Assembly (NCBI GenBank): GCA_030425645.1 | Contig: JAUHZK010000006.1 | Location: 62,001 to 126,000, forward strand | Direction: 5' to 3' | DNA: 64,000 bases | Source: Gammaproteobacteria bacterium | GTDB lineage: Bacteria; Pseudomonadota; Gammaproteobacteria; JAPPPA01 | Part shown: positions 40,407 through 53,297 of the stretch, piece after piece | Layout: each line of letters begins with the position of its first letter | Numbering within the stretch: the first letter of the stretch is position 1 | The notes under the pieces: model-generated | What the model saw: the letters and a program-made list of their open reading frames with translations, nothing else | What the model was told of the DNA's origin: nothing | The model's database searches: none | Program-made: the position numbers and the translations under genes

Positions 40407-40465
40407 ATTGATGTCGCCAATAAACGCCTTGGATATTGAACAAAGGCAGACACGTAGGAGTAAAC

Positions 40466-41638
40466 ATGCAAGCTAGTAACACCCTTAATAATGGGATGAA
40501 CAATACGCCAGCAGAAAGTTGGGTAGACGGTAAGCGCCACCTTTGGTTGTTGGGAATGACCATTCCGCTATTTCCAATGTTGAGTGGTTGGTTTGCCACA
40601 TTCACCAGTTCAGAACTGGTGTGGTGGTTTAGCCCGGTATTTGTATATGGCGCCATTCCGCTGATGGATTGGATTTTTGGCGGCGACCCGCATAACCCGC
40701 CAGAGTCCATCGTTAGCCAGCTAGAAAAAGACAACTACTACCGCCTAGTGGTTTACGCCTTTATTCCGCTGCAATTTATTTCGCTGTTTTGGGCGATGTC
40801 AGTACTCACTAGCGGCACCCTAGGTTGGGTGGGCTCTATTGGTCTAACGCTCTCTATCGGTATGGTCAGTGCGGTTGCCTTCAATACTGCACACGAGCTG
40901 GGCCACAAGCACGAGAAGTTAGATCAGTGGCTTTCTAAGATTTCGTTGATGCCGACGGCTTATGGTCACTTCTTTGTTGAACATAATCGTGGTCACCATA
41001 TCCGCGTGGCGACACCAGAAGATCCAGCCAGCTCACGCTACGGCGAAAGCTACTGGGAGTTTCTACCACGCACCATGCTAGGCAGCCTAAAGAGCGCTTG
41101 GAAAATTGAAGCCACCCGTATGAAAGGCCTAGGCCATTCAGCTATCCATTGGAAGAATGACAACATCCAAGCTTGGGCTATGTCGGTAGTGTTGTTCGCG
41201 GTAATGGTCGCCGTGTTTGGCTGGAAAGTGCTGCCATTTATGGCGGCGCAAGCGTTCTTCTCAATTACCTTGTTCGAGATCATCAACTACCTCGAGCACT
41301 ACGGCCTAAAACGCCAAAAGCTAGAAGATGGCCGCTATGAGCCATGCCAGCCAGAGCACTCTTGGAACAGCAATCATATTGTGACTAACTTGTTCCTATA
41401 CCAGCTGCAGCGTCACTCAGACCACCACGCGAATCCATCGCGTAGTTTCCAAGCGCTGCGTCACTTTGAAGATGTGCCGCAGTTGCCATCTGGTTACGCT
41501 GGCATGATTCCATTGGCCTATATCACGCCACTATGGCGCCGAGTGATGGACCCGAAAGTAAAAGCCCATTATGGCGGTGATCTGTCTAAGGCGAATGTGC
41601 AGCCGCGGGTGGCTAGGAAGTTGGGTTTGGCTGCTTAG
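40466..41638 (+). CDS. alkB: Alkane 1-monooxygenase AlkB
   Basis: An integral membrane di-iron hydroxylase that oxidises medium-chain n-alkanes at the terminal carbon. 390 residues from ATG 40466, which has AGGAG upstream; the longer TTG start at 40436 is not supported. All His clusters are present: HELGHKHEK (about 143), EHNRGHH (about 172), the HYG motif (about 278) and LQRHSDHHA (about 314). Six membrane helices are visible. Rubredoxin is not fused or adjacent. Confidence 0.95.
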   Translation: MQASNTLNNGMNNTPAESWVDGKRHLWLLGMTIPLFPMLSGWFATFTSSELVWWFSPVFVYGAIPLMDWIFGGDPHNPPESIVSQLEKDNYYRLVVYAFIPLQFISLFWAMSVLTSGTLGWVGSIGLTLSIGMVSAVAFNTAHELGHKHEKLDQWLSKISLMPTAYGHFFVEHNRGHHIRVATPEDPASSRYGESYWEFLPRTMLGSLKSAWKIEATRMKGLGHSAIHWKNDNIQAWAMSVVLFAVMVAVFGWKVLPFMAAQAFFSITLFEIINYLEHYGLKRQKLEDGRYEPCQPEHSWNSNHIVTNLFLYQLQRHSDHHANPSRSFQALRHFEDVPQLPSGYAGMIPLAYITPLWRRVMDPKVKAHYGGDLSKANVQPRVARKLGLAA

Positions 41639-41750: not shown

Positions 41751-42044
41751 CTACAAATATGGCTCGAATAAAATAGGTGCGATATATGGCATGCCTGCAA
41801 TTAGTAGAGCGAGAGCGGCTATCCAAGATAGAACCCCCACTTTGGCTAAGGTGGGTGAGTGGTTAAGCTCCATAAAGTAGTAAGCAACTAGGGAAACTTT
41901 TGCGCCTGCTACCACTGCTAATACGGCAAGTGCGATGCTGCTGCTGGTAATGCTCGTGGTCTCAAAATGCCAATAGGCCATCACGGTGATTAACAGCAAG
42001 CTAATCCAGGCCAGCTCGTAAGTTCTTATGGTTTTGATGTTCAT
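41751..42044 (-). CDS. Cytochrome c oxidase subunit IV-like membrane protein
   Basis: 97 residues with three membrane helices (LAWISLLLITVMAYWHF, SIALAVLAVVAGAKVSLVAYYFMEL, VGVLSWIAALALLIAGM). The KVSLVAYYFMEL segment is typical of prokaryotic subunit IV (COX4_pro) and NorF-like proteins. It lies 12 bases after a subunit III-like gene. No catalytic subunit is near. Confidence 0.8.
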   Translation of the reverse strand: MNIKTIRTYELAWISLLLITVMAYWHFETTSITSSSIALAVLAVVAGAKVSLVAYYFMELNHSPTLAKVGVLSWIAALALLIAGMPYIAPILFEPYL

Positions 42045-42056
42045 AGGTTGCTCGCG

Positions 42057-42620
42057 TTAGGAATAGATCAGCAGGAATAGGAAGATCCAGATCATATCTA
42101 CCAGATGCCAATAAATACCGGCACTTTCTATAAACACCATGCCGGTCGGCGTTAGTGATTGATCTTGGCAATACAGCCGCATACAGACAGTGATGCCTAC
42201 CATGCCAAGAACCACATGGAAAAGGTGCAGACCGGTAAACGAGTAGTAATAAGAGAAAAAGGTGCTGGTGCTGTAAAGGCCTCCTTGTTGAATGACTTCG
42301 TAGTATTCAAAGCACTTCACCAGTACAAAGCTGACGCCGCACATTAAAGTTGCCTGAAACAGGCGTTTGGCTTGCTGTATAGCGCCCGCCCTGGCCAAGC
42401 TAACCGCTTTGGCAAAGAAGTAAGAGCTGCTTAGCAATATCAACGTATTGAGTAGGCCAGTGGAGGATGACAAAAGTGCTTGGCCCTCTCCAAATGCTTG
42501 AGGGCTCGTTACGCGGTAGTAACTCATCACCAAGCAAATGATGGAGAACATAGCCGCATCAATGGCTATGAACATCCAAAAGTCGGGATCGCCAGGCAGT
42601 TTTCTAGTGTTTGGTTTCAA
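42057..42620 (-). CDS. Heme-copper oxidase subunit III-like protein (NorE-like)
   Basis: 187 residues, five membrane helices. Segment GLHLFHVVLGM and the C-terminal ESAGIYWHLVDMIWIFLFLLIY are hallmarks of the CoxIII/NorE group. The start is TTG with AAGG upstream; no nearer ATG is available. It sits between the 6-helix gene and the subunit IV-like gene, in one apparent operon. Subunits I and II are absent. Confidence 0.85.
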   Translation of the reverse strand: MKPNTRKLPGDPDFWMFIAIDAAMFSIICLVMSYYRVTSPQAFGEGQALLSSSTGLLNTLILLSSSYFFAKAVSLARAGAIQQAKRLFQATLMCGVSFVLVKCFEYYEVIQQGGLYSTSTFFSYYYSFTGLHLFHVVLGMVGITVCMRLYCQDQSLTPTGMVFIESAGIYWHLVDMIWIFLFLLIYS

Positions 42621-42630
42621 CCGTATAGCC

Positions 42631-43320
42631 TTACAAATGTTGTTTTACTGCTGGCACCATCACCCTGGGTGACAGAATATAGGCGGCGGAAAACACTACC
42701 AACGCAAACCAGAACACGATCAAGCCGTTCCAAGCGAAGGGCCCAGTTTGGAATGTGATGCATAAGGCGCCGGGAATAATCGCAATCAATACCCACAAAC
42801 AAAGCAGTCCATACCACTTAGGGAGAATATTGAGGCTTTTGTTTTTGGCAATCACGGCAGCCCAGAATAGGCAGATAAATTGAGCAAATAATGCGGGCGC
42901 AGTGGCGAAAAAGTTAAGCCACGCCAAGTCGTTTAGGAGCTGGATTAGCTCCGGTGAGCGGTCGGCGCGAAAAGCGGCCGTGCCCCAAAAAACCGCCGAC
43001 ATCATCTGGATGACCATGCCCAAGGTGGATGAAATGACATAAGCCAGTGTCATGGTGCCGAAATGGCCTTCAATCTTCTGAATCAGCTTGCTGGTAACCG
43101 CAGTGTAAAGGCTTAGAGTGAAACAGCCCATCATGACCAAAATGGCGCCTATTTTCATACCAAGGTTTTGCTGGCTGAATAGCTCGGCAATCTCGGCGGC
43201 GCTGGAAGAGGGGTTGTGCGCCGGAATGGCATCCATCAAAAATATCCAGGCTATGCCCATCATGTTGATATAAATAAAGCCGCACCAGGCGCTGAAGACT
43301 TTAAAATTTGACCCTGCCAT
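42631..43320 (-). CDS. Six-helix membrane protein of unknown function
   Basis: 229 residues from ATG 43320, which is preceded by AGAGGA. About six membrane helices, no catalytic motifs seen. Small conserved-looking patches are WIFLMDAIPAHNPS and MTLAYVISSTLGM. First gene of an operon with the CoxIII- and CoxIV-like genes and divergent from an AraC regulator. I do not recognise a named family. Confidence 0.65.
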   Translation of the reverse strand: MAGSNFKVFSAWCGFIYINMMGIAWIFLMDAIPAHNPSSSAAEIAELFSQQNLGMKIGAILVMMGCFTLSLYTAVTSKLIQKIEGHFGTMTLAYVISSTLGMVIQMMSAVFWGTAAFRADRSPELIQLLNDLAWLNFFATAPALFAQFICLFWAAVIAKNKSLNILPKWYGLLCLWVLIAIIPGALCITFQTGPFAWNGLIVFWFALVVFSAAYILSPRVMVPAVKQHL

Positions 43321-43461
43321 TACGCGTTTCCTCTTCAATAAATTGGTCGGTGACGGGATCCGTCAGCGGTAGTCGCTAGTTAGGCGTTCTAGTGGGCAAA
43401 ATTAAAGCATAGGAGCCGCGTCGCAATAACCTTCTATAAAGACAAAAAAGTAGCCCAAAAG

Positions 43462-43506: not shown

Positions 43507-44514
43507 ATGAGTATGAGTAAATACGTTCCGGCTAGGTATCTGGACTATGTACCGTCGTTGTGGCCCCTTAATCATTATCAGCAGACATTGGCTGCGCTGG
43601 GTATTGAGGAGAGTGCTTTACAGCAGCCAGGCGCTAGAGTGCCAGTAGGTCTTTTTATTGCCTATCTACACGCCTTAGAAAGCCAATACCACGGGGTGGA
43701 ACCGCCTAGCTTGCTTACCTTGGCGCATTTCAATTCGGCCACGCACGGTTTGTTTGGTATGGCTACGCTGGCCGCGCCAACTGTTAATGACGCATTGGCC
43801 ACGGCCATGAGGTACCTACATTTGGTCATGCCAGCCCTGCGCCTTGACCATGTTGAATGCGACGGCATGGTGTTAGAGCTTTGTGCTGCTGATGGTTTTA
43901 CTAACTTACCGCCTATTTTGGTAGAAGTGGCGGCGGGGGTCGTTAAGCAATTCAGCGACTATGCAATCGGTGATAAAAAGATTATTAGTGCGTCTTTTCA
44001 GCACAACCAACAGTATTCGGCTACTGCCTATAGAGATTTCTTCGGTTGCCCAGTTACGTTTGAAGGTGCGTCAAATCGTTTTGAAATGGAAGGCTTGGAT
44101 TTAAATGCTGCCATGCAAATGGGCGATTCCAGAACGGCTCACCTGTTGGAGAAAGAGCTTATTTCGCAAGCCAATGCCGGCGCTAACGTTAATACCGTTG
44201 AAGGCTCTGTAATGGAATATTTAGAGCAGAATAAGCAGCGTTTGGGTAGCGTAGAAAAAGCTGAGGTGGCTACACAGCTGGGCATGACGACCCGAACTCT
44301 CACGCGTCGGCTGCTAAAGGAAAACGCAGGTTTCCGCGCGCTGCTAAATGGTAAAAAAATAGAGTTGGCTTACGCCCGGTTAGACGGGGAAGCTGATAGC
44401 CTCGGTCAAATTGCAGAAGAGTTAGGGTTTTCAGACGCCAAAGCGTTTAGTCGCTTCTTTAAGCGAGAGGTTGGGAAAACGCCTTCCCAATATCGTCGCC
44501 GGAAGGTGAAGTAA
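43507..44514 (+). CDS. AraC-family transcriptional regulator (first copy)
   Basis: 335 residues: an N-terminal arabinose-binding-type domain of the group linked to alkane and other hydrophobic substrates, and a C-terminal AraC HTH (VATQLGMTTRTLTRRLLKEN; IAEELGFSDAKAFSRFFKRE). It lies between the CoxIII/IV-like operon and the MOSC-fusion gene, so it may control the former as divergent partner. The inducer is not known. Confidence 0.88.
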   Translation: MSMSKYVPARYLDYVPSLWPLNHYQQTLAALGIEESALQQPGARVPVGLFIAYLHALESQYHGVEPPSLLTLAHFNSATHGLFGMATLAAPTVNDALATAMRYLHLVMPALRLDHVECDGMVLELCAADGFTNLPPILVEVAAGVVKQFSDYAIGDKKIISASFQHNQQYSATAYRDFFGCPVTFEGASNRFEMEGLDLNAAMQMGDSRTAHLLEKELISQANAGANVNTVEGSVMEYLEQNKQRLGSVEKAEVATQLGMTTRTLTRRLLKENAGFRALLNGKKIELAYARLDGEADSLGQIAEELGFSDAKAFSRFFKREVGKTPSQYRRRKVK

Positions 44515-44540: not shown

Positions 44541-46613
44541 TTAAAGCTCAATAACCAAGTCAGACTTAGGTCGCGCGGAACAAAGCAATACTTTGTTTTT
44601 CCCGCCAGGCACTTGCACGTCTTCGGGGTATTGCACTTGGCCGCTGATGAGCGTGCATTCGCAGGCTTGGCAGGCGCCGTAGCGGCAGCCGGATTCGGCT
44701 TCGATGCCTTGTTCTTCGGTGAAGGTGAGTAGGTTTTCTTGGGCTGGGTCCCAGTTAGCGGTTTGTTCGCTTTTGGCGAAGCGAATTTGATATTGGGTTT
44801 GGTCGCTGTCGTCTACGGCTTGGCTGCTGCCAAAGCTTTCGAATTGGATGTTGTCGGCGTTGATACCTTGAGCGGTTAGGTCGTCGTGTAGGGCTTTGCT
44901 AAAGTCAGGTTTGCCACAGAGCATGTAGTGTTGGCCGTTGGGCTGGCCATTCGCGTCTTCTAGCTTGGAAATAATCTGAGCGGCGCTCATACGGCCGGCG
45001 ATGGCGTTATGAACAGGCTCGCCAGTTGGCTGGCTGATAAACAGCTGCAGTTTGAAGTTGTTGAGCCGTGTTTGTAATTGGCTAAGTGCGTCTCTAAAGG
45101 CGAAGTCTTCGCTGCTACGAATGCCGTGGAATAACTGCACCGGACGATTTGGATTTTCCGCAGCGATGGATTCCAGCATGGATAGGAATGGCGTAATGCC
45201 GATGCCGGCGCTGACGAGTGTGAGTGGTGTGTTGTCCGTGGGTACATCGGCGAATTGGCCGCCGGGGTCTTTGATCCAAATTGTGTCGCCTGTGCGTAGG
45301 TTGTCGTGTAAGGCTCCTGAGCCTTTGCCGACAACGGTATTGCTATTGTCTTGGCTGGTTTCGCGTTTCACCGAGATACGGTAGCTGCCGCTGTTATTGG
45401 CGCCAGAAAGCGAGTAGGGGCGGTATACAAAACTACCATCGGTTTGTGGTACGGCAAGCACAATATGTTGGCCGGGCACAAAGCGCGGCAGGCTTTCGCG
45501 GCTTGGGTCTTGGAACCAGAACGAGGTGATGTCGCTGGATTCTGGTTCGCGTTTGATTAGCGTAAATGGACGAAAACCTTTCGGGTGCTGGGATTGGGTT
45601 TTAGCCGAGCTTTCGCTGCGTTTGTCTTGCCATTCGGCCAAGACATTGCCGAGTTTAATAATTTGCGATTTCAGTTTGCGGCCTGTTCCAGTAAGCCAGA
45701 CTGAGAGTTTGTCATTACGCTTTGGCACAAGCTGCACGGTGTCGCCCGCACGAATCACGCCGTTATTACGTGGCGTGGCGTAGGCGCCGAGGTGTTGGTT
45801 AGCGTGTTGCATAACAGCTAGCGGCACTTTCGGGTCTTTGTGTATGCCGGGTTGTTCGGCGCCGGGCATAGAGCAGCGGATGGTGGGGTGGTTGCAGCGG
45901 ACGATGGCATCGCCAATTTTTAAGTCCATGCCACTCCAATCGTTTTCGGCAAGGCCTTCAAATTCCGGCGTGGTTTCGATGACAAAACTCGGACGATAAC
46001 GTTCGGCGCAAAAGTTACCTTCCGGGTAATACCGGTTCATGGTGTCTAGCGTGGCAGTGGTGATGAAGTGCAGCGGGTAGACGTCGTAAAAGGTGCCGGG
46101 AGGAGTCGCGTATTTAGACACGGTGCCGAGCACTTTGAGTGAGAACCAAGAAAAATCCGGATCGGGGTCATCGGCTTTCATGCCCAAGACGTAGCGGGTT
46201 TCGCTAGGCGTCATTGGTTTAGCGAGTTTAAAGGGCTTTTTGTTTTTAGCCGCAGGGCGTTGCAGCAAGCTCACCCGTTTGCCGCAGTACATCGACAAAA
46301 TAGCATCGACATAAGGGTCGTCAGACCGAACCAGGCGGCCGTCTGGGAATTCGATTTCAACTAGCGATCGTGCCTGTGGGCCAAAGCCGTCTTGTGGTTC
46401 GTTGATATAACGCGCCTTCAGCATCATCAGCTTAGGAATGTTTTTGCCGCCGACAATGGCGCCCGTTTCGTCATCACGTATCGCCCAGGTTCGGTCGTCG
46501 GCAAAGCCTGCCGGTTCTAATTGGGCGCTACTAACGGTTTCGCCAAACATGGATTTAACCGGGAAACGCCAAACTTGTTTGATGCGGCCGACGGTGATTG
46601 GGCTGGCTGACAT
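44541..46613 (-). CDS. MOSC domain fused to ferredoxin-NADP(H)-type reductase and [2Fe-2S] ferredoxin
   Basis: 690 residues. Domains in order: MOSC N-terminal barrel (residues 1-120) and MOSC (about 140-300; RCNHPTIRCSMPG carries a conserved Cys, the putative molybdenum or sulfur site); FAD- and NAD-binding reductase (about 345-590; YRPYSLSG, SAGIGITPFLSML, CGKPDF); plant-type [2Fe-2S] ferredoxin at the C-terminus (CRYGACQACECTL plus LLC). AAGGGG precedes ATG. Related to YcbX-type N-hydroxylated base reductases with an added reductase. Its place beside the CYP153 and AlkB genes hints at electron delivery, which is unproven. Confidence 0.9.
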   Translation of the reverse strand: MSASPITVGRIKQVWRFPVKSMFGETVSSAQLEPAGFADDRTWAIRDDETGAIVGGKNIPKLMMLKARYINEPQDGFGPQARSLVEIEFPDGRLVRSDDPYVDAILSMYCGKRVSLLQRPAAKNKKPFKLAKPMTPSETRYVLGMKADDPDPDFSWFSLKVLGTVSKYATPPGTFYDVYPLHFITTATLDTMNRYYPEGNFCAERYRPSFVIETTPEFEGLAENDWSGMDLKIGDAIVRCNHPTIRCSMPGAEQPGIHKDPKVPLAVMQHANQHLGAYATPRNNGVIRAGDTVQLVPKRNDKLSVWLTGTGRKLKSQIIKLGNVLAEWQDKRSESSAKTQSQHPKGFRPFTLIKREPESSDITSFWFQDPSRESLPRFVPGQHIVLAVPQTDGSFVYRPYSLSGANNSGSYRISVKRETSQDNSNTVVGKGSGALHDNLRTGDTIWIKDPGGQFADVPTDNTPLTLVSAGIGITPFLSMLESIAAENPNRPVQLFHGIRSSEDFAFRDALSQLQTRLNNFKLQLFISQPTGEPVHNAIAGRMSAAQIISKLEDANGQPNGQHYMLCGKPDFSKALHDDLTAQGINADNIQFESFGSSQAVDDSDQTQYQIRFAKSEQTANWDPAQENLLTFTEEQGIEAESGCRYGACQACECTLISGQVQYPEDVQVPGGKNKVLLCSARPKSDLVIEL

Positions 46614-46774: not shown

Positions 46775-46802
46775 AAAAAAAGAAGCCCGCTAAACAGCGG
46801 GC
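46775..46802 (-). terminator. Terminator of the CYP153 operon
   Basis: On the minus strand GCCCGC and GCGGGC pair around TGTTTA, followed by TTCTTTTTTT. It lies 29 bases after the ferredoxin reductase stop. The rest of the 217-base gap (46614-46830) shows nothing else. Confidence 0.85.
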
Positions 46803-46830: not shown

Positions 46831-48051
46831 CTATTTGGGCAGCAGCTCGTTTACAGCGATGGACTCGTCGGCGAGTTGCTCAGCCGGCACGCTGGCGTGA
46901 TTGGCGATTAGGCGCTTGCTAAGCATGAATTCTTTAGGCCGGTTGACGCAGTCAGCGGCTAATAGCTTGCCTTGTTGTAGATAGAAGGCCGCAAAACCGT
47001 CGTCGCTGTTGATGTCGCCGCGAATCACCACTTGGTCGTAACCTTGACTGAGGCCAGCAATTTGTAACTTTAAGTTGTATTGGTCTGACCAAAACCACGG
47101 CAGGGTGGTGCAGTCTTTTTGTTGGCCGCAGAGCGTGGCAGCGGCGGTTTTGGCTTGCTCAGTCGCATTCGGCACCGACTCCAAACGCAGGCGGCGTTGG
47201 TAAACCTTGCTGACTTGGCTAGTGCAGTCACCGGCGGCGACGATATTGGGGTCGTCGGTGGCGCAGTAGCTATCGACTTTAATGCCATTCTCGATCGCTA
47301 GGCCGGCTTGCTCGGCAAGTTCGGTGTTGGGAATAACGCCAATGCCAATCACCACTAAGCTGGCCTCTAATTCGCGGCCGTCGGTGCAGATTACTTTTTC
47401 TACGCGCTCCGTGCCGACAAAGGATTGCGCGGCCACGCCAGTGAGAACATTAACGCCTTGCTTGCTGTGTACGCGGTGGTAAAACGCCGATACTTCTGGC
47501 GCGGTGACTCGTTGCAATACACGCTCGGCCATTTCCAATACAGTGACTTGCATACCCAGCTTGGTAAGCGAAGCCGCGGTTTCTAGGCCGATATAGCCGC
47601 CACCCACAATCACCGCCTGTTGCCCAGCTACTACGCTGGATTTAATCGCTTCGGCGTCGGCCATGTCGCGTAGGTAATGAATGCTACCCAAGCCAACGCC
47701 GGGAATGTCGGCTTTGCGTACCCGGGCGCCGGTGCACAGCGCCAGTTTGTCGTACTGCAGGGTTTCGCCGCTGGCTAGGCTCAGGCTTTGTTCTTGGCGG
47801 TTAATGCTGGTTACGCGGCCTTGTTTAAATTCGGCCTGTTGTTTTTCATAAAACGCGGCGGGGCGAATGCCAAGGCTGGCGGCGTCTTTTTCGCCGGACA
47901 GATAGGCTTTTGAAAGCGGCGGGCGATGATATGGCAGGTTGGGGTCATCGCTGATAACCAAAATTTCGCCGTCCCATCCTTCTTGGCGAAGGCTTGGAAT
48001 TAACTGGGCGGTAGCGTGGCTAGCGCCGATGATGATGCATCTTTTAGTCAT
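46831..48051 (-). CDS. FAD-dependent ferredoxin (or rubredoxin) reductase
   Basis: 406 residues. Rossmann motifs: CIIIGASHATAQ (FAD), VIVGGGYIGLE (NADH) and VAAGDCT (FAD, C-terminal). It resembles the putidaredoxin/terpredoxin reductase class. Last gene of the CYP153 operon, so it should pass electrons from NADH to the operon ferredoxin and then the P450. It could also serve a rubredoxin for AlkB elsewhere. GGAG precedes the start. Confidence 0.92.
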   Translation of the reverse strand: MTKRCIIIGASHATAQLIPSLRQEGWDGEILVISDDPNLPYHRPPLSKAYLSGEKDAASLGIRPAAFYEKQQAEFKQGRVTSINRQEQSLSLASGETLQYDKLALCTGARVRKADIPGVGLGSIHYLRDMADAEAIKSSVVAGQQAVIVGGGYIGLETAASLTKLGMQVTVLEMAERVLQRVTAPEVSAFYHRVHSKQGVNVLTGVAAQSFVGTERVEKVICTDGRELEASLVVIGIGVIPNTELAEQAGLAIENGIKVDSYCATDDPNIVAAGDCTSQVSKVYQRRLRLESVPNATEQAKTAAATLCGQQKDCTTLPWFWSDQYNLKLQIAGLSQGYDQVVIRGDINSDDGFAAFYLQQGKLLAADCVNRPKEFMLSKRLIANHASVPAEQLADESIAVNELLPK

Positions 48052-48093
48052 GGTTGGGTTTCTCCATAGAAGCGGCCTGGGTTCGATGGCGGC

Positions 48094-49008
48094 TTAGGCG
48101 GCTTGGCGAAAATGTTCCAATAAAATGTCGGCCACGATTTCTGGCTGTTCTGCCTGCAAAAAATGCCCGCATCCGGGCAGTTGTTTGACCGTTAGCTGGC
48201 CCCGAAGGCTGGCCGTCGCGGCGATTTGCTGATGCGTACTCGCGTGCATACAGCCGTCATCAAGCCCGGCCAGCGCAAGCGTTGGTGTTACAAAGGGCTG
48301 CTGCATGAGGCTAATAGCTTGGCGCACACGTGGGTCGTGCCAGCGAAATAGGTTGCGGTAGTAGCGGGTGCTCGCCCAAGCCAACTGCGGATTAGAAAAT
48401 ACCGTTTTGGTAGGTTCAAACTGCGCCGTGCTGAATTCCCAACTCGGCGACCATTTTTGCCATAGGCGGCGAACATAGGCGGCATTGTTGCGCGTTAGTA
48501 AACGGTGCGAGGCCGATAGCTGCATGACGGGCATATACGACGAATACGCTAGCTGCCGAGGTAACTGTGGCAGCAGCTTGCGCCATTGTGCTTTAACGGG
48601 CATCGGTGGCACGGCCAGCAAGCTAACGGTCGTCCACGGCTGTTTATGGTGCTGGTCTTGGTCCTGTTGTTGGCCAGCCAGCACATTGGCTACGGCGGCT
48701 CCCCAATCGTGGCCGACTAAATGTGCTTGATCGGCATTTAGGTGGCGGCGCCAAGCGTCTATATCGGCAGCAACGCTGAGCAAGTCATAGCGCGCCTCAG
48801 CGGTAGCGCTGCCTAGCGTATAGCCGCGTAGCCAAGGGGTTAGTACCCGGTAGCCCGCATCGACCAAGCGGGGCACCACTTGCTGCCAGCTGTGAGGCGT
48901 GTCGGGGAAACCATGTACCAAGATGACGAGAGCTGCCTTGTCGTCCCCGTATAACTCGGCTGACAGGCTGATACCGTCGTGATCTAGAGTGAGTTGTTGC
49001 ATGTTCAT
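48094..49008 (-). CDS. Alpha/beta hydrolase, epoxide hydrolase-like
   Basis: 304 residues. Oxyanion motif HGFPD (32-36), nucleophile D101 in VGHDWGA and a C-terminal catalytic His in PGCGHFLQ. An Asp nucleophile points to epoxide hydrolases or haloalkane dehalogenases rather than esterases. It is inside the CYP153 operon, between the alcohol dehydrogenase and ferredoxin reductase genes. CYP153 enzymes can epoxidise terminal alkenes, so epoxide removal is plausible; the substrate is unproven. Confidence 0.85.
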   Translation of the reverse strand: MNMQQLTLDHDGISLSAELYGDDKAALVILVHGFPDTPHSWQQVVPRLVDAGYRVLTPWLRGYTLGSATAEARYDLLSVAADIDAWRRHLNADQAHLVGHDWGAAVANVLAGQQQDQDQHHKQPWTTVSLLAVPPMPVKAQWRKLLPQLPRQLAYSSYMPVMQLSASHRLLTRNNAAYVRRLWQKWSPSWEFSTAQFEPTKTVFSNPQLAWASTRYYRNLFRWHDPRVRQAISLMQQPFVTPTLALAGLDDGCMHASTHQQIAATASLRGQLTVKQLPGCGHFLQAEQPEIVADILLEHFRQAA

Positions 49009-49042
49009 GGTGGCGTTTCGTGCTTTATCGATCGGGCTAAGA

Positions 49043-50266
49043 CTAGGCCGACTGCAGTAATGGATTTAGCTGTTGGACCAAGGTTTCGCAGCGGCCTTGG
49101 TCCATATAACGCGGTACGCCATAGGTAAAACGGGCTTCGTTAAGAGCGCCGCGCGCAATGTTGGGGATGTCTTTAGCCTTGAGTTTTTCGTAGTGTTGGG
49201 GAATGCCAAAGCTGGCGTTCATTTGCCGAATGCGATCAATAAATAAGTCGGCGAGTTCAAGGTCGCTTTGGGTGGCATTGCCGATATCGCATTGGCGGGC
49301 CAAACGCGCTAAACGGGCGGCGCATTTGCTTTTTGAGTAGTCCAATACATGCGGCATAACGATGGCGTTGGTTAGCCCGTGTGCGGTGTGATAACGCGCC
49401 GCTAGGTTATGCGAAATAGTGTGCACGTAACCTACGCCGGCTTTGGTGATGGCTAGGCCGGCGAGATGCGAGGCCTCGGCCATGTTGTGGCGGGCTTCTA
49501 GATCGCTGCCGTCGGCTACGGCCCGTGGCAGATATTGCATTACCAGCTGCGCAGCCTTTAACGCGTGTTGGTTAGTTGCCCAATAGGCGTTGTTAGACAG
49601 GTAGGCTTCGACCGCGTGGGTGAGCGCGTCCATGCCGGTGGCGGCGGTAATGGTTGCTGGTAGTCCCGTCATTAACGCGCCGTCTAGTGCCGCCTTATGC
49701 GGGATCACGCGGGGGTCAATAATGGTGAATTTTAGGGTCGCCTCGGGGTCTGAAACCACGGCGCCGGGGGTAACTTCTGAGCCGGTGCCGGCGGTAGTTG
49801 GGATGGCGTACATTGGAATCATGCCGCGGGTAATGCGGAACATGCCGGCCATTTTTCGGATTGGCTTGTTATTTTTACTTCTAGCGGCAATTACTTTGGC
49901 GGCGTCTATGGGCGAGCCGCCGCCAATCGCTAGTACAGCCTCCGCCTGTGATTGTTGCAGCTGATAAAGACCAGCCTCAATTTGATCAATGGTTGGGTCG
50001 GGTAATACCCCGTCATAAACGGTTGTGCCGATGCCCGCTGTTTGTAATTGCTGTTCTATTTGACCGACTAGGCCAACTTTTACCAACTGTGCATCGGAAA
50101 CAATCAGTAGTTGCTTAATGCCATCCGCGAGTATGCTTTGGGCCAGCTCTTCTACCGCGGTTTCGCCTTTGAATAGCTGCGGTTTTCGCAGTGGCATCAG
50201 TATCGTCACCAATTTTAGGATAGCGATATAGCTGCGGTAGAAGGTGGCTTGAAGAGCAAATGACAT
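49043..50266 (-). CDS. Iron-type alcohol dehydrogenase
   Basis: 407 residues. NAD(P) motif AIGGGSPIDAAK; metal ligands in GMDALTHAVEAY (Asp and His) and HTISHNLAARYHTAHG (His residues), as in group III alcohol dehydrogenases such as FucO. It is expected to oxidise the alkanol made by CYP153 (or AlkB) to aldehyde. AAGGA before the start supports ATG 50266. The first 24 residues are an extra hydrophobic stretch. Confidence 0.9.
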   Translation of the reverse strand: MSFALQATFYRSYIAILKLVTILMPLRKPQLFKGETAVEELAQSILADGIKQLLIVSDAQLVKVGLVGQIEQQLQTAGIGTTVYDGVLPDPTIDQIEAGLYQLQQSQAEAVLAIGGGSPIDAAKVIAARSKNNKPIRKMAGMFRITRGMIPMYAIPTTAGTGSEVTPGAVVSDPEATLKFTIIDPRVIPHKAALDGALMTGLPATITAATGMDALTHAVEAYLSNNAYWATNQHALKAAQLVMQYLPRAVADGSDLEARHNMAEASHLAGLAITKAGVGYVHTISHNLAARYHTAHGLTNAIVMPHVLDYSKSKCAARLARLARQCDIGNATQSDLELADLFIDRIRQMNASFGIPQHYEKLKAKDIPNIARGALNEARFTYGVPRYMDQGRCETLVQQLNPLLQSA

Positions 50267-50357
50267 GGTTGTTTTCCTTATGCCTTAGCCCCGCAGGGCG
50301 GGGCTTTGCATAGTAACTAGGTTGGCAAGCGTAGGGCTAGGCAGTAATCCGATAGGG

Positions 50358-51752
50358 CTATTTTTTGGCGCTAAGTTGCACCATCATCTTGCTATAGCCT
50401 TTCACAAAGTTGGACTGCACGTGCTCTGGATCTTCTACCACTTTGATATCGTCGAAACGTTCTAGTAGTTCTTCCCAAAGAATACGTAGTTGTAGCTCGG
50501 CTAGGCGGTTGCCCATGCAGCGGTGCACGCCAAAGCCAAACGATAGATGGTTGCGAGCGCTTTTGCGGTCGATGATGAAGTCATCTGGTTTTTCAATTTT
50601 GCGTTCGTCGCGGTTGCCCGACGCATACCACATCACCAGCTTGTCGCCTTTTTTGATGGTTTGGCCATTCAGCTCAACATCTTGTTTGGCCACGCGGCGC
50701 ATATAAGCCAACGGGGTTTGCCAGCGAATGATTTCAGACACCATGTTTGGAATCAGGCTTGGGTCGGCTTTAAGTTTTTTGAACTCATCGGGAAACTGGT
50801 TTAAAGCCAATACACCGCCGGTCATTGAGTTACGCGTGGTGTCGTTGCCGCCAACAATCAGTAGTACCAAGTTGCCAATAAACTCCATTGGGCGGTTAAC
50901 TAGGTCTTTGGTGTCTTCGTTCTGCTGTAGCAGGGTAATTAGGTCAAAGCCCGGCTCTTCACCGGCGTCTAAGCGAGCTTTTTTCTGGTGCCAAAGCTTG
51001 CCAAATTCACGGCTGAATTCTTTGGCGACATCGAATAGTTCTTCGGTGCTGTTTTCGCCGCCGGTAGTTTCGCGGCCGCCGCCGGCAGCGTCAGACCATT
51101 CAACTAGCTTATGGCGTTCTTCGTAAGGGAAGTCTAGTAGCGTTGCCAGCATACGAGCGGTTAGTTCGATAGAAACGGTTTCCACCCAATCGAATGGCTT
51201 GTCTAATGGCAGGTTGTCGAGCACGTCTTGGGTTCGTGCGCGGATCAGACCTTCCATTTCTTTGAGGTTTTTGGGTGCCACTACGCCTTGCACAGCCTGA
51301 CGTTGTACGTCGTGCTTAGGTGGGTCCATGGCAATAAACATTTCAATCGCCAATTCGTCTGGCAGCTTGCCAATAATGATGAATGGCTCGGCCGAGAATA
51401 GGTCGTGGTGCTTATCAACGTAAACAATGTCTTCGTAACGGGTGATTGACCAAAACGGGCCGAATAGGCTGTCTTTTTGGTAGTGCACCGGGGCTTCGTC
51501 ACGCAGGCGCTTGAAGTAAGGGATCCACTGTCCTTGGCGAAACATAAAGGGGTTGCTGACGTCGATGTCTTCTAGCGCCACGCTGGCAACGTCTGGGATA
51601 GGGGTTTCGACAATTTCTGAGGATTTGTCGTAAATACCAACAATCTTTTTGGCGTTGTAAACCATCTCGGCTGCCTGAATTTGCATTGGCATTGGCACAA
51701 TCGCCTGCGCCTTGCTGACGGCCGCCTGTGTAACACTGTCTAAAAGTTTCAT
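50358..51752 (-). CDS. Cytochrome P450 CYP153-type alkane hydroxylase
   Basis: 464 residues. I-helix motif GGNDTTR (301-307), ExxR E340-R343, heme-binding FGFGVHRCMGNRLAE with C412. The overall sequence and context match the CYP153 family, soluble class I P450s that hydroxylate medium-chain alkanes at the terminal carbon. It uses the operon ferredoxin and FAD reductase. GGAG precedes ATG. Second gene of the operon after the ferredoxin. Confidence 0.95.
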   Translation of the reverse strand: MKLLDSVTQAAVSKAQAIVPMPMQIQAAEMVYNAKKIVGIYDKSSEIVETPIPDVASVALEDIDVSNPFMFRQGQWIPYFKRLRDEAPVHYQKDSLFGPFWSITRYEDIVYVDKHHDLFSAEPFIIIGKLPDELAIEMFIAMDPPKHDVQRQAVQGVVAPKNLKEMEGLIRARTQDVLDNLPLDKPFDWVETVSIELTARMLATLLDFPYEERHKLVEWSDAAGGGRETTGGENSTEELFDVAKEFSREFGKLWHQKKARLDAGEEPGFDLITLLQQNEDTKDLVNRPMEFIGNLVLLIVGGNDTTRNSMTGGVLALNQFPDEFKKLKADPSLIPNMVSEIIRWQTPLAYMRRVAKQDVELNGQTIKKGDKLVMWYASGNRDERKIEKPDDFIIDRKSARNHLSFGFGVHRCMGNRLAELQLRILWEELLERFDDIKVVEDPEHVQSNFVKGYSKMMVQLSAKK

Positions 51753-51802
51753 TTAAAGCACTCCGTTGAGGGACTAATGGGAAGCTAGGTTGCTAAAGCC
51801 GC

Positions 51803-52120
51803 TTACATCTGAAATTCAGGTAAGCGCGCAACCATGCCGTCCATGTCATCGGATAAGGTGATTTGGCAGGCGAGGCGAGAGCTGTCTTCGCGTTCCGGGG
51901 TTAGATCGAGCATTTGCAGCTCTTCATCGTTGGCCTGGCCAGTGCCGCCAGTGTTGCCTTCAAGAATGACGTGGCAGGTGCCACAGGCACACTCGCCGCC
52001 GCAGTCGGCGTCGATGCCGGGCACGCCGTTATCTAGCGCCAATTGCATTAATGATTCACCGGCATCAAATGCGACTGAATGCTCGGTGCCGTCGTGTTCT
52101 ACAAAAGTAATCTTGCCCAT
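51803..52120 (-). CDS. [2Fe-2S] ferredoxin of the CYP153 system
   Basis: 105 residues, adrenodoxin/putidaredoxin type. Cluster ligands C40, C46, C49 and C85 (CGGECACGTC and LAC). It carries electrons from the FAD reductase at the end of the operon to CYP153, whose gene follows 50 bases downstream. GGGAG is upstream of ATG. Confidence 0.95.
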   Translation of the reverse strand: MGKITFVEHDGTEHSVAFDAGESLMQLALDNGVPGIDADCGGECACGTCHVILEGNTGGTGQANDEELQMLDLTPEREDSSRLACQITLSDDMDGMVARLPEFQM

Positions 52121-52286: not shown

Positions 52287-53297
52287 ATGAGCGCTAATCA
52301 GGCCAATATTCCATCTAATTACAGCCGCTTAATGGCTTATGAGTTAGGCCTTAGCAAGGCACAGCTGCCGAGTTTGTTGGCAGGTACGGGGTTAACCGTG
52401 GCGGAGTTAGTCAGCGAGCAAACCCTGATTACTGCTGAGCAGCAGCTGGTGTTGTTGCGGAATGCGGTGAGGCTGTCCGGCGATACCGGTTTTGGCCTAC
52501 GTCTAGGCCAGCGTTTGATTCCGTCGACGCATGGCGCGCTTGGTTTTATGGCTTTTAGTAGCCGCGATTTATATACCGCCATGCGCGGTATTCAGGCGTT
52601 TGTGCCAATGCGTATGAGCTTGGCAAATGTGCACCTACGCGAAACCGCGGAAACGCTAGAGTGCTGGGCCGACTTTAACGTGCCCGTGGAAGCGCAGCTG
52701 CACCGCACAATTGCTGAGTCGTTTCTGGTGGTGTTGTTTAAGCTTGGGGAATACATTGTTGGCCGCCCCTTAAGCGAAGTGGTGACGACCTTGGATTACG
52801 CTGAGCCTGATTACGCCGAGCAATACCACCAGAATTTTCCAGGGCAGGTGTTGTTTTCGGCTGAACGTTTTGGCGTGTCCTTACCTATGAGTTTATGCCG
52901 AGAGCCGAACGCCTCTGCTAACCATGAAAACTATATGTTGGCCCTGCAACAGTGCCAGAAACAACGTGCGCAGCTGCAGTCAGACAAAGCCAGTTATCAG
53001 CACCGGGTAGAAACCATGTTGCTGGAGCATCCACCCGGCACGATTAACGAAGAAGATGTGGCCGCTGCCTTGTTTATGAGTAAACGTAGCCTAGCGCGGC
53101 GTTTGGCTGAGGAAAGCACGGGCTTTCGCCAGATTAGGGAGCAGTTGCTGGCGGGGCAGGCCGCTAACTATTTGCGTGAAAGCAGTTTGTCTGTAGAGGC
53201 GATTGCTACGCTGTTGGGATATCACGACAGCGCCAACTTTAGGCGGGCATTTAAGCGTTGGTTTGCGGTGACGCCGGCCGACTACCGGGAAAGTTAG
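52287..53297 (+). CDS. AraC-family transcriptional regulator (second copy)
   Basis: 336 residues with the same layout as the first AraC copy: an N-terminal ligand-binding domain (residues about 20-210) and a C-terminal HTH (VAAALFMSKRSLARRLAEES; IATLLGYHDSANFRRAFKRW). Divergent from the ferredoxin-CYP153 operon, and so probably its activator. Similar regulators are found beside CYP153 operons in other alkane degraders. Confidence 0.9.
   Translation: MSANQANIPSNYSRLMAYELGLSKAQLPSLLAGTGLTVAELVSEQTLITAEQQLVLLRNAVRLSGDTGFGLRLGQRLIPSTHGALGFMAFSSRDLYTAMRGIQAFVPMRMSLANVHLRETAETLECWADFNVPVEAQLHRTIAESFLVVLFKLGEYIVGRPLSEVVTTLDYAEPDYAEQYHQNFPGQVLFSAERFGVSLPMSLCREPNASANHENYMLALQQCQKQRAQLQSDKASYQHRVETMLLEHPPGTINEEDVAAALFMSKRSLARRLAEESTGFRQIREQLLAGQAANYLRESSLSVEAIATLLGYHDSANFRRAFKRWFAVTPADYRES

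Follow-up and report, generated by a model that had tools for sequence, protein, structure and literature searches.

The Fusion Gene and Its Domains

The window analyzed here, a 64,000-nucleotide stretch of a gammaproteobacterial contig, encodes a 690-residue MOSC-FNR-ferredoxin fusion protein on its minus strand (44541–46613). The open reading frame runs uninterrupted from ATG to stop, and a ribosome-binding site (AAGGGG) precedes the ATG. A promoter scan around the gene detected no sigma-70-like sequence. Five Pfam domains, each passing its curated gathering score, follow one another in the order MOSC_N, MOSC, FAD_binding_6, NAD_binding_1, and Fer2. The initial annotation had described a chain that combines a MOSC module, a flavin reductase, and a [2Fe-2S] domain, and the intact frame, the five domains, and their key residues confirm this description. 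Because full-length counterparts occur in two other genomes, the fusion is not an artefact of assembly or frame.

The N-terminal half contains the MOSC_N beta-barrel (residues 9–70; 46404–46589, minus strand; PF03476, E 4e-13), with conserved P18-V19-K20 and D40-R41, and the Moco-binding MOSC domain (residues 177–294; 45732–46085, minus strand; PF03473, E 1e-11). The R246-C247 pair is invariant in 35 aligned proteins, and C247 (codon 45873–45875, minus strand; motif IRC) aligns with the cysteine of the SRC motif of Escherichia coli YcbX. C247 is the expected Mo ligand. MOSC_N followed by MOSC, together with this invariant and predicted Mo-binding cysteine, places the protein in the mARC/YcbX branch.

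A predicted linker helix (residues 302–336; 45606–45710, minus strand; pLDDT about 53–72 in the AlphaFold2 model) connects MOSC to the FNR module. The latter comprises an FAD-binding domain (residues 350–454; 45252–45566, minus strand; PF00970, E 7e-11) with RPYSLS at 398 and an NAD(P)H-binding domain (residues 466–575; 44889–45218, minus strand; PF00175, E 2e-14) with SAGIGITPF at 468. A plant-type [2Fe-2S] ferredoxin domain (residues 615–683; 44565–44771, minus strand; PF00111, E 2e-9) closes the chain. All four cluster cysteines are present (C643-x4-C648-x2-C651-x26-C678), and the C-terminal half has the FAD, NAD(P), and C-x4-C-x2-C-xn-C motifs of an FNR-[2Fe-2S] module. The AlphaFold2 model, built with 35 sequences, has a mean pLDDT of 79 and a pTM of 0.55; confidence is high for the MOSC half and across much of the reductase, and low for the ferredoxin domain.

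In targeted searches of the genome, the fusion is the only MOSC protein found, and one gene scores over the cut-off for moaA, which acts in Moco synthesis. Moco can therefore be expected in the host.

Genomic Neighborhood

Upstream of the fusion gene lies a CYP153 operon (46831–52120, minus strand), which forms its context rather than a partner. Based on domain assignments, its co-directional genes, separated by short gaps, encode a [2Fe-2S] ferredoxin (51803–52120), CYP153 (50358–51752), an iron-type alcohol dehydrogenase (Fe-ADH; 49043–50266), an alpha/beta hydrolase (48094–49008), and an FAD ferredoxin reductase (46831–48051). Directly after the stop codon of the ferredoxin reductase, an intrinsic-terminator-like hairpin (46785–46802, minus strand) closes the operon. 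It consists of GCCCGCTGTTTAGCGGGC, whose 7-bp stem is perfect, and then, on the same strand, TTCTTTTTTT. The terminator scan returned about as many sites as shuffled sequence, and among them this hairpin ranks first on stem, tail, and location. About 170 bp separate it from the start of the fusion gene. An AraC-family regulator (52287–53297, plus strand) is divergent from the CYP153 operon; with the NCBIfam CypR model it reaches 480 bits, just short of the cut-off of 500. In Spongiibacter, too, CYP153 has a relative of this regulator in divergent orientation (locus L134).

On the other side, another AraC-family regulator (43507–44514, plus strand; PF12625 and PF12833) is arranged tail-to-tail with the fusion gene across a 26-bp gap. 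AlkB is encoded farther on (40436–41638, plus strand), with the boxes HELGHK, HNRGHH, and HSDHH. Between AlkB and this regulator, the minus strand (41751–43338) encodes two small membrane proteins of the COX4_pro and COX3 families (97 and 187 aa) and, adjoining them, a hydrophobic protein of 235 aa that matches no Pfam family. CYP153 lies about 3.7 kb upstream of the fusion start and AlkB about 2.9 kb past its stop, so the proximity of both hydroxylase genes described in the initial annotation is correct. In a genome of the same genus (G001; 88% complete, 330 contigs), the fusion was not found at the set limit, and CYP153 was not found.

Relatives and Origin of the MOSC Half

A scan of a genome collection covering 84,980 species found no relatives when the full-length fusion protein was used alone. 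Relatives were recovered with an alignment of the MOSC half, and the comparison takes in the best 80 loci; searches by class and phylum sampled about 370–400 genomes each. The family profile of the MOSC half matches human mARC1 (6FW2) across both domains (E 1.5e-35). The top matches are mostly stand-alone proteins of ~290–330 aa. Those of Marinobacter, Alcanivorax, and their kin (L040, L042, L062, and L063) have about 35 extra residues at the C-terminus, which may correspond to the linker helix of the fusion.

A reductase and ferredoxin are attached in 3 of the best 80 loci, belonging to Neomelitea salexigens, Spongiibacter marinus, and the metagenome-assembled genome (MAG) KLAP178. The first two fusions share about 69–70% identity with the window protein in MOSC, 57% in FNR, and 73–76% in the ferredoxin. 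The distant KLAP178 fusion shares 36, 30, and 44%, respectively.

In the MOSC tree, which took in two YcbX-type fusions and in which KLAP178 forms a long branch, YcbX groups with these one Vibrio and one Aeromonas fusions with 100/100 support, and an AU test rejects a single clade of all fusions (p-AU 4.5e-85). The MOSC half of the window fusion falls in another clade, made up mostly of stand-alone proteins of ~290–330 aa and distant from YcbX, and is set apart from YcbX by descent. In the FNR-ferredoxin tree, the Vibrio-type proteins lie across a 99/93 split from the window fusion, and joining them is marginally disfavored (p-AU 0.07). The argument for a separate origin is therefore carried by the MOSC half. 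Most simply read, the window fusion looks like a second assembly of the Vibrio layout from other parts. It probably arose when a stand-alone MOSC protein and a general FNR-ferredoxin module were joined, in an event distinct from the one behind the Vibrio YcbX fusions. A single origin of the window, Spongiibacter, and KLAP178 fusions fits the trees and is weakly supported.

The nearest structures of the reductase half in the PDB are the reductase domains of flavohemoproteins, followed by phthalate dioxygenase reductase and the reductase modules of CYP116B-type enzymes (6laa, 6kbh). Similar FNR-ferredoxin modules also appear among plasmid matches (H31–H60) under several annotated names, including MOSC (YiiM type), molybdopterin-dependent oxidoreductase, and pyridoxamine-phosphate-oxidase family. 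The FNR-ferredoxin half looks like a reductase module that has been reused with many partners.

Gene Context of the Fused Relatives

The two Spongiibacteraceae fusions belong to an operon-like run with very short gaps (L034:6840–12043 and L035:6828–12043), composed of an AraC-like regulator, an alpha/beta hydrolase, a flavin amine oxidase, and the fusion. The fusion gene follows 35 bp behind the amine oxidase gene. As the two loci are near-identical, they count as one case. The amine oxidase neighbor suggests nitrogen chemistry.

In KLAP178, a stand-alone MOSC gene and the MOSC-FNR-ferredoxin fusion occur together in one cluster (L082:991–12383), along with genes for an AraC regulator, a dehydrogenase, an SDR, two outer-membrane receptor-like proteins, and a luciferase-like monooxygenase. 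Conserved AraC regulation between KLAP178 and the window was considered but is not proposed, as the likeness of the regulators covers about a quarter of their length (the helix-turn-helix).

Proposed Function and Alternatives

MOSC enzymes are widespread. Every MOSC protein tested in vitro so far reduces N-oxygenated compounds, and despite this activity the physiological role and substrates of these enzymes are unsettled (PMC10637980). We consider it likely that the window fusion is a self-contained Moco reductase of the mARC/YcbX kind that was separately assembled and stands outside the electron chains of CYP153 and AlkB. By homology, its activity is best read as the NAD(P)H-dependent reduction of N-oxygenated compounds. 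Of the two roles proposed in the initial annotation, the self-sufficient reduction of N-hydroxylated compounds is the one that the relationship to mARC and YcbX best supports. From characterized homologs, we infer both the electron path and the type of reaction. In the flavohemoprotein-like reductase module, FAD would accept a hydride from NAD(P)H and send electrons one at a time to the [2Fe-2S] cluster that the C-terminal ferredoxin domain carries. From there they would reduce Moco, held via C247 between MOSC_N and MOSC, and the Mo center would take the oxygen off an N-hydroxylated or otherwise N-oxygenated substrate.

The other proposed role, a supply of electrons to the adjacent monooxygenases, is not supported. 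It is very unlikely that the FNR-ferredoxin half donates electrons to CYP153, or to AlkB via another carrier, with MOSC activity being secondary. In its favor are the physical nearness of the fusion to both hydroxylases and the likeness of its module to the reductases fused within self-sufficient CYP116B-type P450s. Against it, the CYP153 operon encodes a ferredoxin and a reductase of its own and is parted from the fusion gene by the terminator-like hairpin. Nor are the genes linked in the two closely related Spongiibacteraceae genomes compared. Their CYP153 homologs are 63–72% identical to that of the window and are preceded by a ferredoxin gene; the MOSC fusion is absent from the 16 kb examined around them and belongs to another operon. 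As the initial annotation observed, the window holds no rubredoxin, but the only one found in the genome is encoded outside it, on contig C16, side by side with a rubredoxin reductase that has a rubredoxin-binding domain. With this pair and the ferredoxin and reductase of the CYP153 operon, both hydroxylases have ordinary electron chains available, and AlkB is not left with a missing rubredoxin chain for the fusion to fill. Electron transfer from the fusion to CYP153 or AlkB, although possible in the test tube, is not supported by the genome. A literature search found no paper that connects CYP153 to a MOSC fusion. Only position ties the fusion to the alkane-degrading genes, and none of the findings bears on alkane oxidation.

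Two further alternatives concern the substrate. Instead of detoxifying broadly, the fusion could serve catabolism by acting on one particular N-oxygenated intermediate in a process coupled to amine oxidation. The hydrolase-amine oxidase-fusion operon of Spongiibacter and Neomelitea argues for such a role, as does the KLAP178 cluster with its second MOSC, dehydrogenase, SDR, receptor-like, and luciferase-like monooxygenase genes. We nevertheless regard it as unlikely for the window protein, whose gene lacks such neighbors: the genome's top amine oxidase match reaches 41% identity and lies on another contig, and the two supporting operons amount to the single case described above. A bolder reading, which we regard as quite unlikely, is that Spongiibacteraceae and a few relatives alone have a self-sufficient mARC-like enzyme of separate assembly whose substrate is one specific N-oxygenated intermediate in the breakdown of amines. 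If so, the amine oxidase and the molybdenum N-reductase would share one pathway, and a MOSC enzyme of this branch would be tied to a natural substrate. A nitrite-reducing, NO-forming enzyme is very unlikely. The Chlamydomonas mARC homolog crARC is reported to reduce nitrite to NO with other electron partners (PMC10637980), and the reductase half of the fusion is closest to NO-detoxifying flavohemoproteins. This match, however, covers the common reductase domain alone, without the globin, and no nitrite-specific sequence feature was identified.

If the fusion is the self-contained reductase of N-oxygenated compounds favored here, a single chain that needs just NAD(P)H offers an easy system for substrate screening. 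Different MOSC types have repeatedly been joined to one kind of reductase module, which suggests selection for a built-in supply of electrons. An initial clue to a pathway for the MOSC branch to which the fusion belongs comes from the Spongiibacter operon.

Comparison with Known Systems

The fusion architecture is already known, since both YcbX and YiiM-like fusions have been described. In Vibrionales YcbX proteins, one chain combines Mo-binding, NAD(P)H/FAD-binding, and ferredoxin domains, and YiiM-like single-chain versions exist as well (PMC10637980). The Vibrionales examples VCA0924 and VPA0411 are named in the YiiM structure paper (PMC5818509). The window fusion has the same MOSC_N-MOSC-FNR-Fdx order as the Vibrionales YcbX fusions, so that the NAD(P)H-FAD-FeS-Mo path predicted for it is the same as well. 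To Vibrio and Photobacterium fusions other than VCA0924 and VPA0411, MOSC-half identity is about 22–26%. The YiiM-like "MOSC and FAD-binding oxidoreductase" proteins of Rhizobium, Streptomyces, and Caballeronia have a similar FNR-ferredoxin module (about 31–34% identical), but their MOSC domain is of the YiiM type and lacks MOSC_N.

Like the window fusion, E. coli YcbX has MOSC_N-MOSC with the invariant cysteine and ends in a [2Fe-2S] domain. In contrast to the fusion, it has no reductase domain and relies on CysJ (PMC10637980). The two proteins are 24% identical in MOSC, and the first cysteine of the YcbX CxxC motif is replaced by threonine in the window fusion (TIRC). Human mARC1 (6FW2) likewise matches in both MOSC_N and MOSC, including the RC motif. 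Whereas mARC1 receives electrons from a separate cytochrome b5 and its reductase, the window fusion would use a ferredoxin carrier on the same chain. Outside the Spongiibacteraceae, the nearest kin of the MOSC half are the stand-alone MOSC_N-MOSC proteins of Mycobacterium, Marinobacter, Alcanivorax, and many MAGs (32–40% identical), which, unlike the fusion, have no reductase or ferredoxin. What differs here is the ancestry that the tree assigns to the MOSC half, not the domain layout. By that layout, the window fusion would work like a single-chain YcbX, yet by the descent of its MOSC half it is no YcbX.
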